Below the pieces are notes generated by a model. It was given only the letters and a program-made list of their open reading frames with translations, ran no database searches and was not told the DNA's origin. Shown here piece by piece: positions 15,901 to 30,083 of a stretch of DNA of 64,000 nt. The DNA lies in assembly GCF_963675165.1 (NCBI RefSeq), contig NC_087391.1, positions 3,460,646 to 3,524,645 on the forward strand, given 5' to 3'. The stretch's first letter is position 1, and each line of letters begins with the position of its first letter. Both the position numbers and the translations under genes were made by a program. This DNA comes from Halichondria panicea (lineage: Eukaryota; Porifera; Demospongiae; Suberitida; Halichondriidae).

Positions 15901-18900
15901 GACACATGAGAGCTCCATTCTACAGCTCAGAACACCCTTTTTCAAGTGTTCTGCTCATAAGCTAGACAATGGTTCTTAAATATCGACGACTCGTGACATT
16001 TCGATCATTATACCTACAAACATTCTAGCTTTGCCCAGCTACCTTTAACACACCCAATCAGAGTGGTGAATAGCGCAGCGAGGTTGCACCCTAAGTGTAT
16101 CCCTAGTGATTAATTAACCACTACACCTACGCACCCACTTAAAATGGGTTTGAGACGATAGTATGATATACTTGTACCCTAACGTAGTTTGTATTACAAT
16201 TGCCATAGTTGGATACTTCTCCTAATGAACTCCTGCTATTATAGTTATCCTATATAGAAACTGGATTATTAGCGATCATAAGCGTATCTTGATTTTAGCG
16301 CATGCTCAACTGCAGGGTTTTTATACTAGAATTTAAGGCTTTTCCAATTGCGAAGCAAATTAGTGACTAGTTACCAGTACAGTGCATGATAACTATAATA
16401 GCTTGAGACTGCTTGCCTACATGTAGCTCGCTCGTTGAAAAACGCAGAGAGTCCTCACTCGTCACAGGGACACATCCAGTTACTGGGTATAGGGCTCGTT
16501 ATGACTGCAGACGTACTGTATAGCAGGAAATTTTCGTGGGGTAAAATATTCGTTATTTTCGTGGGCAAGCTGACCTCCACGAAATGTTAACGTAGGCGTG
16601 GCTTACCAGAACGTAGGAATGCAGTGCTGGCAACAAGACTAAACGAAATTTTTACTCACGAAAACCACTGTTTCTCGAGTTGAAGAAACTTTTTTACCCC
16701 ACAAAAATTACCCGCTATACGGTAAGCAAATTCTCAAAATATGAGCGCATAGAGATAGCAGCTTTTACGGTGTAAGTACTTTACTCCAGTATAGTGAAAT
16801 TGTACAAAGCCCAACTTTTAATAATAAAAATGACTGAAAAGCAACCCAACACAACACCTTGATATGCTTTGCCATGATTTCAGGAGATTCATCATACCCA
16901 CCTAAAGCATTCGGGAGTCCTAAGAATACATGACATCATAAAACATAACACTTCCAGGATTATATGCACCAGCATTAGGGTAGCAGAAAGTGTAAGCTTC
17001 AGTATTCCTGCTCACTGCTGCAAGAAAAGGCCTCATTTCTCTTGCACCAAGGGCGCAGTTTAGTCCAAGGCTGTAGCAATAGAATCAATATTCTTATCAG
17101 TGGAAAGATATCACAATTATTATCAACAACCACTTATTACCAAGGGCGTATGAGAGAAGAGGGCATGCAACAGCTTGCGAGCAAAAACTGTAAGTGGGCG
17201 GTGGAATTTACAGTAATATCTAAAAATAGATTATTGATTTTGTGTAAATTGCAGGCTATAAATAGATCGAACAAAGTTTTTTGCTCGCACGTTGGACTAA
17301 AAGTGAGTTGCATACCCTCTTCTCTCATACGCCCTTGTTATTACAAAGCAACTACTCAATTACCACATTGGATGGGCATGGGTGACACTAATTACGAAAG
17401 CTTCAGTAGTTTGGCCAGACAAAGTGCGTCCACTCTTATCCACAATGGTACCAGACACCTGGAGTTTTAGCCATAATTATACAGAATACTAATCAGAACA
17501 GGGTATCAGATTTTAAAAAGAACTTACGAAAATTGGCACTTTACGATAACCTGACGCAAAAAGTTGGTCAATGCCATACAAAGCAGCCTGCAGAGCCAGA
17601 GTAATGGAGGACCAGATAATAAACATTCAACACAGAAACATGTAATTTGCATACAAACACACCCGTGCATTAGCTGTGTCAAAGATCGTCTCCACCATCA
17701 ATATATCTACACCTCCGTCCAATAGTCCCTTTGCTTGCTCCAAGTAGGCATCAGCTAGCTCGTCAAAGGCTGTAATGGGAAAGAGGACCTACAAAACTAT
17801 CAAGCAAATTGTAAATTACTGATATTTCGATAATCTGGTCGTTCCACAGAAGGTGAGAGAGAGAGTGTTCGATTAGTGGGACCAATTGACCCAATTACAT
17901 ATCGGGGAATGCCTGTAGTTAAAAAGAACGTAACAAAAAATTAATAGGCTAAATACTGTACGTATTTGCTTGATTCATTTTGCTGGCAAAGGAGGCTACA
18001 ATTCAAGTATTCATAATTATGGCCAATGTGTCAAAAGTTTTAAAAAATGCCCGTATTTACATTTTACATAATTATTATTTACATAGAAAGAACTTAAGGT
18101 TAGGGTATTGTGATCACTCGTGAATATTCATGACTTTAATTCTGTCAGCTTTTTCTCTAAAGAGAAAAAGCAAAAGTTTGCAAGTTCAAAGAAGTCTGCT
18201 GTACTTATATTGTATGATTATCAACTCTATTGCTATTGTTTTGTGTTGATTATGAAGATGCATGAATGAGAAAAGTGGGCATCAAAACGCAAGTATATAG
18301 ACTTTTTTTGCGTCAATTTATAAGAGCAGTAAGACTTTCAGCAAGCTTTATTGGTATCTATATGTAGCTAAGTACCTTCCAGAGGGGCCAGACGAAGAGA
18401 TATTTGTTGTAAAACTTCATACGGGCGAGTAAAAGCTAAGAGTAGACGGTAAGTATCTAAAAATACGCTTGATCTTCCGATAAACAGGAAGCTATAGCTC
18501 CAACCAGATCGCCTTTTCTCAAAATTTCTCTTCGTCTGGCCCTGCCCCTACCTTTCATGCACAATAAATAAAAGTTGGTAATTATGAGGACCATATGAGT
18601 CCCAAAAGCATTGTGCCAGTTGAAACAGATTAGAGCATCACTTAGTCTTGCTAGTCACACGTGAAAAATCAGAACTACTATTATTATTATAGCCACGTTT
18701 CGTCTCACAGTGGAATCAAGTCATGTGCTTCATTAACCGCAACATTGCCACATGCACATAGTACAAATATCCTATAGTCTTTCAGCCTTAAATCTGAGCC
18801 TTGCTTCTCCAAAAATCAATATAGCTACAGCAAATGCTGACAGTTTCAGCTAGCTACTAGATAATACGGCTTCAGCCTTGACGAATCTCAATCACATTCT

Positions 18901-25517: not shown

Positions 25518-25667
25518 CACACAACGACACATGCAAGCCATAATTAATATATCTTGAAGTTGATCCACCTTAATAGGGTGCTTCTTGGTATAACTATTCC
25601 TTGCATTACATCATACTATTACACTGTGTATTACATCATAATCATAGTAATGCACAGTGTATAGGTA

Positions 25668-27347
25668 CATGTAGGTAGCACTGGTAATGTAGGTAATGCA
25701 GGTAATGTAGGTAACACTAGTAATGTAGGTAATGTAGGTAACACTGGTAATGTAGGTAATGTAGGTAATGTAGGTAACACTAGTAATGTAGGTAATGTAG
25801 GTAACACTGGTAATGTAGGTAATGTAGGTAATGTAGGTAACACTGGTAATGTAGGTAATGTAGGTAACACTGGTAATGTAGGTAATGTAGGTAACACTGG
25901 TAATGTAGGTAATGTAGGTAATGCAGGTAACACTGGTAATGTAGGTAGCATAGGTAATGTAGGTAACACTAGTAATGTAGGTAACACTGGTAATGTAGGT
26001 AACACCGGCAATGTAGGTAATGCAGGTAACACTGGTAATGTAGGTAATGCAGGTAACACTGGTAATGTAGGTAGCATAGGTAATGTAGGTAACACTGGTA
26101 ATGTAGGTAACACTGGTAATGCAGGTAACACGGGTAATGTAGGTAACACCGGTAATGTAGGTAATGCAGGTAACACGGGTAATGCAGGTAATGTAGGTAA
26201 CACTGGTAATGTAGGTAATGTAGGTAACACCGGTAATGCAGGTAACACTGGTAATGTAGGTAACACGGGTAATGTAGGTAACACGGATAATGTGGGTAAC
26301 ACGGGTAATGTAGGTAACACAGGTAATGTAGGTAACACTAGTTATGTACGTAATGTAGGTAATGTAGGTAACACGGGTAATGTAGGTAACGCGGGTAATG
26401 TAGGTAACACAGGTAATGTTGGTAATGTAGGTAACACAGGTAATGTAGGTAACACGGGTAATGTAGGTAACGCGGGTAATGTAGGTAACACAGGTAATGT
26501 TGGTAATGTAGGTAACACGGGTAATGTAGGTAACACTGGTAATGTAGGTAACACTGGTAATGTAGGTAACACGGGTAATGTAGGTAACACTGGTAATGTA
26601 GGTAACACGGGTAATGTATAGGTAACACTGGTAATGTAGGTAATGTAGGTAACACGGGTAATGTAGGTAACACAGGTAATGTAGGTAACACTAGTTATGT
26701 AGGTGATGTAGGTAATGTAGGTAACACGGGTAATGTAGGTAACACGGGTAATGTAGGTAACACAGGTAATGTAGGTAATGTAGGTAACACTGGTAATGCA
26801 GGTAACACGGGTAATGTAGGTAACACTAGTAACACGGGTAATGTAGGTAATGTAGGTAACACTAGTAACACGGGTAATGTAGGTAACACTGGTAATGTAG
26901 GTAACACGGGTAATGTAGGTAACACGGGTAATGTATAGGTAACACTGGTAGTGTAGGTAATGTAGGTAACACAGGTAATGTAGTTAACACGGGTAATGTA
27001 GGTAACACGGGTAATGTTGGTAGCACAGGTAATGTAGGTAATACAGGTAATGTAGGTAACACGGGTAATGTATAGGTAACACAGGTAATGTATAGGTAAC
27101 ACGGGTAATGTAGGTAACACGGGTAATGTATAGGTAACACAGGTAATGTAGGTAATGTAGGTAACACTGGTAATGCAGGTAACACGGGTAATGTAGGTAA
27201 CACTAGTAACACGGGTAATGTAGGTAATGTAGGTAACACTAGTAACACGGGTAATGTAGGTAACACAGGTAATGTAGGTAATACAGGTAATGTAGGTAAT
27301 ACAGGTAATGCAGGTAATGTAGGTAATGCAGGTAATGTATAGGTATA
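25668..27347 (+). repeat. 9-bp minisatellite, left array (~1.68 kb)
   Basis: Built from GGTAATGTA and GGTAACACN nonamers (N mostly T or G), most often alternating as GGTAATGTAGGTAACACT, with variants GGTAATGCA, GGTAGCATA and GGTAATGTATA. Because 9 is divisible by 3, frames stay open and give Leu-Pro-Thr or Gly-Asn-Val periodic ORFs on both strands that are not genes. Confidence 0.97.
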
Positions 27348-27514
27348 TAGATGTAATACTGATAGGATTTAGGTTGTAGCGGTGTGCATATCATGGTACG
27401 GTAAAGTTAAAATATGCATGCAGTGAATATTGATGAACACAACCTGAAACGACACAAATAACAATGAAGAATAGTGATTAAATAGTATATGGGTAGCTGT
27501 AAGTGTTTAATTTT
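27348..27514. other. Spacer between left array and transposon gene
   Basis: Unique AT-rich DNA forming the 3' flank of the minus-strand transposon gene remnant. Nothing else recognised. Confidence 0.5.
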
Positions 27515-28424
27515 CTACTGTCGCCTCGCCGTTTTCTTACGCGGTTCATCATCATCGTCATCTGTATCATCTCCACTGTCTGTACTGATGTCGTCATGAT
27601 GTGCCTCTTGCAGTGTGCATTTCAATTGCATTGTACACAGTTGTGTGAAAGTAGCTAGTGATTTGCGTCGGTGCAACAGGTACTTTGCAATATCACTTGA
27701 TGATTTTGGGCTAAGTTTCAGGCCTTGATCAGATGCAGTCAAAAGTGGGTATTATAGATGGATGATATAATGTCACTACTAGATTCTAGTTCATTTTCAG
27801 AGCAGTAAGATAAGATTGCTTCTAAAAGGAAGCACTCCAGCTTTGTAGGGGGTCCAGTCATAACTATTTCTTGCTTCTTTTCAGCAAAAGCAATACTTTT
27901 GGTGATTTCATGTTTCTGCCACTGGTGCTTGTGCCTGTTGCATTTTACTATTGTTTTTTAGGGTCTCTTAGCAATACTGTTGCTACAACTTTTGCAAACA
28001 CATTTTGCATGGCATCCCTCGCCTGCTTTTAAGCATGGGCATGATATTTTGGTTGTGCATTTGTACTTGATTTCACTGCAATGAGATCCTCCAGATTTGT
28101 CATTCTTACCACAAGTACAGGAAATCATATTCTCGGCATTACTTAGTTGTATACGTAGTGGCAGTGGAATCACACCATCAAAATGGCCTTGACCGTACTG
28201 ATTAAATGCAACCATTAATGGGATTGATACAAGTTGCACCTCAGGGGTGACACAGAAGAGTGTGTGATATGCCATGGAGGAGAATACAATAATTGGTATT
28301 CCTAATACATTGGATAGACATGTTAGCATCGTATCTCCCAATTGGCCTTGAAAAGTGGAGCGGTTTAAGAAGAGTTTTGCTTCTTTTTTAAGGTCAGTGC
28401 CTTCACACAAAAAAGGTTCATATC
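27515..28424 (-). pseudogene. OTU-like / CXC transposon protein, broken
   Basis: The first part (28424-27958) reads FLCEGTDLKKEAK, GDTMLTCLSNVLGIPIIVFS, then YGQGHFDGVIPLP, which looks like the C-terminal half of an OTU-like cysteine protease fold with the conserved G-H-(Y/F)-D. A cysteine cluster follows (CTCGK...HCS, KISCPCLKAGEGCHAKCVC, KSCSN), resembling a CXC/tesmin motif. A TAA at 27958-27960 interrupts the frame, but the same frame stays open for ~60 more codons. The tail then continues in another frame to 27515, ending in an Asp-rich basic tail (DDTDDDDDEPRKKTARRQ). The N-terminal half, where the catalytic Cys would be, is missing because the right minisatellite begins there. I assign no specific superfamily. 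Confidence 0.65.
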
Positions 28425-28846
28425 TATGTTACCTACATTACCAGTGTTACCTGCATTACCTACATTACCTGTGTTACCTGTGTTACCTACATTACCCGTG
28501 TTACCTACATTACCTGTGTTACCTACATTACCCGTGTTACCTACATTACCTACATTACCTAAATTACCTATATTACCTAAATTACCAGTGTTACATTACC
28601 CGTGTTACCTACATTACCAGTGTTACCTTACCCGTGTTACCTACATTACCTACATTACCAGTGTTACCTACATTACCTACATTACCCGTGTTACCTACAT
28701 TACCAGTGTTACCTACATTACCCGTGTTACCTACATTACCAGTGTTACCTACATTACCTACATTACCCGTGTTACCTACATTACCAGTGTTACCTACCTT
28801 ACCTACATTACCAGTGCCTTACCTACCTTATCTACATTACATAATG
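28424..28846 (-). repeat. 9-bp minisatellite, right array (inverted)
   Basis: The complement of the left array: TTACCTACATTACCAGTG and variants for ~420 bp. It is about four times shorter than the left array and abuts the 5' side of the transposon gene remnant. Confidence 0.97.
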
Positions 28847-28924
28847 TATATACAGGCTTATGATGTAATATACAGTGTAATAGTATGATGTAATGCAAGG
28901 AATAGTTATACCAAGAAGCACCCC

Positions 28925-29585
28925 TATATGGCGCGCCGTGTGTTTCAATAACAATGTCTGCATGTACATAGGCGAGTCCTGGTGTGAATATACCGAGATA
29001 GCATGCATGTGCAATGATCGCCTTATGCAGTGATCATGTCTGCACATGCAACCATTAGTCTCTGCGTGTGCAGTGATCATCCTTCAACGGAGATAAGCTT
29101 CCTTCTTGACTATAAGAGTTCCAGACGAAGTCTTAGGGCTAACAGCTTAAATCACATGCCCTCTGTCATTGTGAAATCTTTGAAAGAAACCTTTGACAAG
29201 GAGACATGATCACTGCATGTGCACAGACTAATGGTTGCATGTGCAGACATGATCACTGCACACGCAGAGACTAATGGTTGCATGTGCAGACATGATCACT
29301 GCATGTGCAGAGATTAATGGTTGCATGTGCAGACATGATCACTGCATGTGCAGAGATTAATGGTTGCATGTGCAGACATGATCACTGCATGTGCACAGAC
29401 TAATGGTTGCATGTGCAGACATGATCACTGCACACGCAGAGACTAATGGTTGCATGTGCAGACATGATCACTACATAAGGCGATCATTGCACGTGCATGC
29501 TATTTGGGTATATTCACACCAGGACACGCCTATGTACATGCAGACATTGTTATTTATTGAAACACATGGCGCGCCATACACCCCC
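28925..29585. mobile_element. TIR element with GGCGCGCC ends and 43-bp repeats
   Basis: The left arm (28925-29079) starts TATGGCGCGCCGTGTGTTTC. The right arm (~29425-29585) is its inverted copy, ending GAAACACATGGCGCGCCATA. Shared inner blocks: AATGTCTGCATGTACATAGG and GCAATGATCGCCTTATG. It touches the right end of the minisatellite element. Confidence 0.85.
29205..29462 (+). repeat. Six 43-bp tandem repeats
   Basis: Units start ATGATCACTGCA at 29205, 29248, 29291, 29334, 29377 and 29420, each with CTAATGG or TTAATGG TTGCATGTGCAGAC. Two alternating variants (CATGTGCA or CACACGCA) suggest higher-order duplication. The repeats are contiguous, with no unique spacers. The left arm carries one inverted unit. 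Confidence 0.93.
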
Positions 29586-30083
29586 TTATATAATTATTCA
29601 TGTACCTTCAGCCATTTTTGCCATGAGAACATCATTATGCAAAACTTAGTGTAATAATCTTTACCAAAATGGACATGTACCATATATACATAATTGATAA
29701 TACGCTGAATTTGGGGCAGTTGCTCAAAAGCATGCATAATAGCAGAAAAAAGAGCATAATTTGCCAGGGCCTAATTCTAGTCAAGGCTCATGAATAAATA
29801 TAACCTGAAGCGCTTCTATCTATTGCTACACACTACCGTACACCTATCTGCGCATGCGCAACCGAGGCGTGTGAGTTGAACCTTCTGCAGCTGATTTCTA
29901 TAATTATAAGCCAACACACATTCATATCTCCGAAATCCCTATCCCACAGAACCTGTCACATGTAAGATCCAATCTTAGTGAATCAGCATGACTACCGTGC
30001 CTACTCAAGGCGAATAACACATTAATATAATTATGTCCACATGTATAATTTATTGTATGACGCTGGTTAAACATAATAAATAA
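29586..30083 (-). other. MDN1 downstream region
   Basis: AATAAA on the minus strand at 30049-30054, 30 bp past the MDN1 stop, could be the poly(A) signal. A family A-like tail (TACCGTACACCTATCTGCGC then ATGCGCAACCGAGGC) lies at ~29830-29870. No gene seen. Confidence 0.5.

Follow-up and report, generated by a model that had tools for sequence, protein, structure and literature searches.

Inverted minisatellite arms in a probable non-autonomous foldback transposon of the sponge Halichondria panicea and in its larger relatives

The classic foldback elements, FB/FB-NOF of Drosophila and TU of sea urchin, have arms made of short tandem repeats, and for many foldback elements only gene-less copies are known. 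Here we describe E1, an element of this plan in a 64,000-nucleotide stretch of the Halichondria panicea genome (the window; C15:3460646-3524645), together with its relatives in the 131-Mb, 39-contig assembly that was searched. Among described systems, Galileo of Drosophila (P superfamily) has long ends that contain tandem repeats, the two ends of one copy vary separately, many copies consist of two ends only, and the tandem repeats hold secondary transposase-binding sites; the ends measure about 0.3–1.2 kb, the F-group tandem unit is about 210 bp, the transposase is P-type and the target-site duplications are 7 bp (PMC3573991, PMC3688188). Tm1 of root-knot nematodes, a Mutator/Phantom foldback, has composite inverted ends that vary in length and contain internal repeats, duplications of 8–10 bp, and both transposase-bearing copies and copies resembling miniature inverted-repeat transposable elements (MITE-like); Phantom transposases are described by their FLYWCH and MULE domains (PMC3169594). 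Tetris of Drosophila virilis, an example of a foldback without a known gene, makes 8–10 bp duplications, and the tandem repeats in its ends fed satellite DNA (PMC4079207). An OTU-like protease domain is found in transposon proteins of Helentron (PMC6431247) and Ginger (PMC2836005).

E1 is very probably a non-autonomous, internally deleted cut-and-paste foldback DNA transposon of a DDE-OTU-CXC lineage, with its arms inside the mobile unit: the minisatellite arms lie within the ends and, where these can be read, within the target duplications. E1 and its relatives (family A) and two further families, B and D, are foldback elements by structure, a known kind, with long terminal inverted repeats, inverted tandem-repeat arms, unequal and variable arm lengths, and target-site duplications. 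Their likeness to FB/FB-NOF and TU is one of plan. With Galileo they have in common long ends with internal tandem repeats, separate change of the arms and gene-poor copies, whereas families A and B have units of 8–9 bp, arms of up to 11 kb, 8-bp duplications and a DDE-OTU-CXC candidate transposase. Variable inverted ends with internal repeats, and the occurrence of gene-bearing and gene-less copies, recall Tm1, but the proteins scanned here (P0002 and P0005, described below) had no FLYWCH or MULE match. Mutator/MULE duplications are 8–10 bp, usually 9, and the 8 bp of families A and B can be set beside that range. The foldback plan with tandem repeats inside the ends is also that of Tetris, for which no transposase is known; free satellite arrays occur there and are rare here. 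Ginger and Helentron share the OTU-like domain, but have integrase-like and rolling-circle cores, respectively. We know of no minisatellite arms in either.

The features of E1 and its paired relatives are collected in Table 1. The initial annotation had placed an element here at 25573-28926, 3 bases too far out on each side, and its description of inverted ends of about 67 bp bordered by mirrored arrays of 1.68 kb (left) and 0.42 kb (right) was borne out: the ends match over 66 bp (98%, E = 3e-25, genome-wide search), and the left array measures 1,673 bp and the right one at most 414 bp. According to Tandem Repeats Finder, the left array has 94.8 copies of an 18-bp period, and the right array spans 28427-28803 or 28427-28840 depending on the period called. 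All array lengths are assembly lengths. An inverted-repeat search returned 589 inverted pairs, the 25 longest being 174–217 bp with 74–89% complementarity, a geometry that would permit a fold-back hairpin.

Table 1. Features of E1 and of the element inserted in its right tip (window positions), and paired family A copies elsewhere (contig positions)
Feature	Position	Strand	Size	Remarks
E1, whole DNA transposon	25576-28923		3,348 bp	ends, arms and core
E1 left target-site duplication candidate	25568..25575	.		CCTTAATA
E1 left terminal inverted repeat	25576..25641	+		starts GGGTGCTTCTTGGTATAACTATTCC; genome-wide end search
E1 left arm, 9/18-bp minisatellite	25663..27335	+	1,673 bp	GGTAATGTA GGTAACAC(T/G); Tandem Repeats Finder
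E1 core	27336..28426	.	1,091 bp	97.2% identity with L027:6319-7403 of the 29-kb copy (1,093 aligned columns)
C-terminal acidic tail of E1 gene	27515..27751	-		further frame change; matches part of P0001
Decayed continuation of E1 gene	27739..27957	-		other frame; matches part of P0001
Open stretch of E1 gene	27961..28428	-	156 codons	rear of OTU-like domain and CXC-like cysteine domain, front missing
E1 right arm, left-arm minisatellite inverted	28427..28840	-	414 bp	Tandem Repeats Finder
E1 right terminal inverted repeat	28858..28923	-		genome-wide end search
Family D element	28925..29578	.		in E1 right tip; ends TATGGCGCGCCGTGTGTTTCA, here with extra TA on left; 43-bp arrays
Family D left arm	29025-29080			about one unit
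Family D right 43-bp arm	29202..29476	-		6.4 units
E2	C15:3315291-3316358			paired family A copy
E3	C3, right end 1131390, left tip 1123627			paired family A copy
E4	C3:3784926-3786656			paired family A copy
Composite family A copy	C2:8618239-8628405			both ends

Across the genome, family A ends and arrays go together. The 96-bp left end of E1 gave 25 matches, and a search for 25 bases of the end, allowing 3 mismatches, gave 23 (reversed control, 0). Twenty of the 25 end loci were cut out, the other five all lying on C1 at 2.5–2.6 Mb, which is also where L018 and L020 are, and 16 of the 20 have an array within 1.5 kb inside the end; at L003, L009 and L011 the array is present but set off from the end rather than immediately adjacent. 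Conversely, 90 of the 92 exact matches to an array 30-mer fall in 9 loci bearing at least one family A end, and all 77 matches to an array 27-mer (up to one mismatch) are in loci with ends; at two mismatches the array pattern had 862 matches, of which a first portion was listed, and was left out of the locus count. These counts uphold the earlier proposal that the array is part of the element and not beside it. The accompanying idea that the elements seed minisatellites is borne out insofar as arrays reach new sites with them, but free-standing arrays are rare (one in ten loci by the 30-mer). Besides the paired copies, two mirror copies on C11 and one at C8:3589082 have one end each only. The left tip of E3 is separated from the rest by an insert bounded by AACTATTCC repeats, and this insert contains a reverse-transcriptase open reading frame (ORF) at L029:396-2339 (RVT_1, below cut-off). 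A segment at C1:2527490-2631682, recurring every 31–32 kb or so, carries seven minus-strand family A end patterns, and the ends cut out from it (L018, L020, L031) carry only the outer 33 bp or so of the end and lack the A array. The E1 end had no match in a phage collection, as would be expected of eukaryotic DNA.

Family B has the same plan with an unrelated array. Its gene-bearing copy (C1:4676580-4690570) has an open 903-aa frame (P0005) between inverted arrays of an 8-bp unit, GTTCCATG and variants, which form arms of 2,022 and 3,374 bp; the inverted alignment of its ends covers 65 columns (94%), six of them flank, and an exact 8-bp duplication (GGAAATTT/GGAAATTT) surrounds it. The 20 genome-wide matches to the B end, all retrieved, form 7 inverted pairs and 6 singles. 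Duplications are 8/8 in the C1 copy, L047 and L048 (L047 lacks 4 bp at its left tip) and 7/8 in L045, L046 and L049. The seventh pair, L044, has no duplication, as its two flanks repeat each other in inverted orientation on either side of a run of N; because of that run, the apparent palindromic rearrangement (C13:2045382-2048312) was set aside, and L044 was counted as a failed duplication. The inverted flanks of this copy (region C13:2045300-2064500, L044 and L045) may be a scaffolding artefact or an inverted duplication. An array lies inside 17 of the 20 B ends (the left array of L046 is only 55 bp). A 29-mer of the B array has 210 matches, and the 100 listed all fall in six loci that carry one or both B ends; of these loci, the four with listed matches on both strands have plus left of minus, and two have minus only. 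The transposases of families A and B are related (P0002 versus P0005, 37%, E = 3e-96), yet the two families carry quite different arrays, so that array sequence is not a fixed feature. The presence in this genome of larger relatives that bear a transposase gene, in one family beside a different minisatellite, also argues that the arrays are part of the elements and travel with them.

The history of the arms is clearest in L048 and L049, sister copies of family B in opposite orientation whose 153-bp cores differ at 4 positions. Arms were compared first at k=27/24, and L047-L049 were refined with unique 32-mers. The homologous arms of the sisters share 282 and 376 unique 32-mers, 256 and 361 of them collinear, against 60–94 shared and 28–59 collinear in the four other arm pairings, and their lengths are 2,642 versus 2,063 bp and 2,338 versus 3,632 bp, differences of 579 and 1,294 bp. 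Because the arms match arm-for-arm yet differ in length, the B arrays arrived as part of the element, and each has since gained or lost blocks on its own. The two arms of the gene-bearing B copy have clearly different unit mixtures, so arms are not kept alike. Independent expansion or contraction, which had been proposed from the unequal arms of E1, is thus seen in family B; for family A we infer it, since the two arms of E1, the 29-kb copy described below, E2 and E4 are no more similar to each other than are arms of different copies.

Target-site duplications of family A were sought by eye at six end pairs, and were clear in two, E2 (exact 8/8, GTTGCTTT/GTTGCTTT) and E4 (7/8, CAACGTTT/CAAAGTTT), degenerate in two (E1 and the 29-kb copy) and absent in two (E3 and the C2 composite). 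The check suggested in the initial annotation therefore succeeded in relatives of E1, but not clearly in E1 itself. Its right candidate, CCTTATAT at 29584-29591, is away from the right end because another element, of family D, has inserted in the right tip of E1.

The 29-kb family A copy (C1:5224654-5253710) has arms of 11,045 and 1,832 bp made of the same minisatellite as E1. Its middle, about 16 kb, contains a 605-aa ORF (P0002), a 363-aa ORF (P0001), a P-type transposase fragment, a DUF927-like ORF and others. The E1 core corresponds to a part of this middle in opposite orientation, and the 156-aa stretches are 96% identical as proteins. With a core 97% identical to part of this larger element, E1 is, on sequence comparison, an internally deleted, non-autonomous copy, lacking everything between the other arm and the front of the OTU-like region. 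The "decayed transposon-type gene" of the earlier description is indeed decayed, but is only the OTU-like/CXC-like rear of a probable DDE transposase gene. An inverted-repeat search of L025:1-3000, at the 29-kb copy, found none, as expected with arms that face each other over 29 kb. The DUF927-like ATPase ORF (L026:7353-8213, minus strand, E = 2e-4, just under cut-off) is possibly cargo or a second nested element. At C1:5224654, C1:5253710 and C8:3589082, a further 35–40 bp are shared beyond the GGGTGC end, from near GGTTGTTTCTCC; family B ends, compared with these extended ends, begin GGTTGGTAC.

The frame of P0005 matches both P0002 and the E1/P0001 stretch (32%, E = 2e-11 to the 156 aa of E1; 31–32% to P0001), which suggests that P0002 and P0001 are pieces of a single gene. 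By inspection, the middle of P0005 has conserved acidic residues that form a candidate DDE triad (D221, D290 or D312, E418), and the OTU-like region has GDGNC and GHYD boxes, which we take to mark OTU proteases; cysteines in CXC spacing follow. The DDE-like, OTU-like and CXC-like parts stand in one frame in family B (P0005), in pieces in family A, and in a decayed relative on C23. This suggests that the larger members have a gene for a DDE-like transposase joined to an OTU-like protease domain and a CXC-like cysteine domain, and that they insert with an 8-bp duplication. Pfam scans gave no MULE or FLYWCH match in P0002 (E up to 1) or P0005 (E up to 10) and no match to the KDZ transposase domain (KDZ/Zisupton), for which Pfam has a model. 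Searches of solved structures gave one chance-level match each. The C23 locus was rejected as an unambiguous third clade member, because it has a decayed transposase, 9-bp arrays on one side only and an admixture of other inverted elements. At C23:12431-16445 there are mirrored 18-bp arrays (GATAGATGTCAAGTAGTC) in a 232-bp inverted repeat (94%), and at 16504-17753 a separate 9-bp array (TAGTTGCTC) near the decayed transposase relative. Transposase fragments at C5:3981199 and C1:5780565 were also put aside, their surroundings being without mirrored arrays.

The 29-kb copy offers another candidate mover, since its P-type transposase could have moved the element in the manner of Galileo, with the DDE-OTU-CXC gene as a passenger. 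Duplications of 8 bp do occur in the P superfamily. The superfamily range of 7–8 bp (7 for Galileo; PMC3573991) suits such a mover, and the fragment is well matched (PF21787, E = 3e-24; L027:1154-2182, minus strand). However, it belongs to a family with 91 matches across the genome, many of them within long open frames, as expected of a nested insertion, and the open 903-aa frame of family B, where three ORFs of the element were scanned, is DDE-OTU-CXC. We consider a P-type mover improbable.

Several observations weigh against the interpretation of E1 as a foldback transposon of a DDE-OTU-CXC lineage, the PF21787 match among them. The two duplication candidates of E1, CCTTAATA and CCTTATAT, agree at 5/8 positions ungapped, or 7 with one gap. 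The outer ends of the 29-kb copy extend 35–40 bp past the ends of E1, E2 and E4; possibly the extended end is an older outer end and the shorter copies use an inner one. The OTU front box of the 29-kb copy is in a different frame from its neighbours, so that the gene, spread over more than one frame, is broken there or is read in some other way. Domain matches are faint: Peptidase_C65 (E = 0.002) and OTU (E = 0.11) in P0005, both under the Pfam cut-off, MSL2-CXC (E = 4e-5, under cut-off) in the C23 relative, and a weak resemblance of both DDE parts to IS256 (NCBIfam, E = 0.01 and 0.007). An AlphaFold model of the 903-aa protein, built on 4 alignment rows, has a pLDDT of 35. Ends and arrays are also not always joined: 4 of the 20 cut-out A end loci lack the A array, namely L018-L020, which share only 33–34 bp with the end query, and L008 (C15:1788845-1788928), a full-length end with 4.8 copies of a 13-bp repeat (AACTGCAAAAGCG) in place of the usual array; three of the 20 B ends likewise have no array or just remnants of one (L053, L055) or a marginal array (L054); and two of the 92 array 30-mer matches are at a single locus without A ends, C2:2484343. 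L008 would fit a replaceable array unit, as a single case for which no partner end was found.

These unaccompanied ends and the one end-less array are what chance juxtaposition would produce, ordinary short-end transposons having landed in or beside pre-existing minisatellites. Against it stand mirrored arrays inside both the ends and the target duplications in two families, the 90 of 92 array matches in loci with ends, and the correspondence of homologous arms between sister copies, and we give this explanation almost no credence.

The family D element is the younger one, inserted after E1, because its 6-bp duplication (CACCCC at 28919-28924 and 29579-29584, by eye) is the E1 tip plus one base; the right flank of E1 thus lies past it. 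A second D copy is inside E3 (C3:1126656-1127714). Family D is a large, very uniform foldback family (L061-L067 among its copies): an 84-bp query of the end and first array unit gave 350 matches genome-wide, and 40 of 68 first-look candidates were scored. By eye, duplications are exact over 6 bp in five of six two-ended copies and agree at 5/6 bases in one; L066 and L067 had no right-end match. Unlike families A and B, one D copy has a DUF6589 ORF (above cut-off) and a zf-AD-like ORF (below), and a reverse-transcriptase ORF (RVT_1) lies inside a D copy at L062:859-2721.

In the mechanism we propose for E1 and its relatives, a DDE-type transposase would cut at the short outer ends, leaving an 8-bp stagger, the arrays inside would expand or shrink in multi-unit blocks via slippage or gap repair, and loss of the middle in gap repair would give array-core-array derivatives like E1. 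The arrays may offer the transposase numerous weak binding sites, a role also proposed in Galileo, and this precedent makes the idea reasonable (PMC3688188), but the complete difference between A and B units argues against a fixed binding site. Alternatively, the arrays may have no role, being slippage by-products in degenerate subterminal repeats that are tolerated in non-coding DNA, which we rate at slightly less than an even chance. That the A and B units are wholly different despite related transposases, and that arms vary in length between about 0.05 and 11 kb, would suit this, whereas arrays recur in three families, D with other gene content and another duplication length, and passive decay might leave more array-less copies than the 4/20 and 3/20 seen for A and B. 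As it concerns function, this alternative can hold together with the foldback-transposon explanation. It is also conceivable, if rather unlikely, that transposition itself makes minisatellites: gap repair through foldback arms would amplify any short sequence just inside the ends, families A and B, with related transposases, and D, with other gene content, would all reach unrelated mirrored arrays, and the transposase would track the array and not a fixed site.

No DDE-OTU-CXC foldback was found among the literature matches listed, a scope that left out most subscription journals and Repbase. As far as these searches reach, the DDE-OTU-CXC gene, the arms of up to 11 kb and the unrelated arrays beside related transposases are new. 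With two families that have related transposases, one in an unbroken frame, and the same plan with unrelated units, a need for arms can be separated from a need for this particular sequence, and the purpose of repeated foldback arms becomes a testable question. Part of the minisatellite content of this genome is tied to mobile elements, and the sister copies permit arm-by-arm measurement of array growth.

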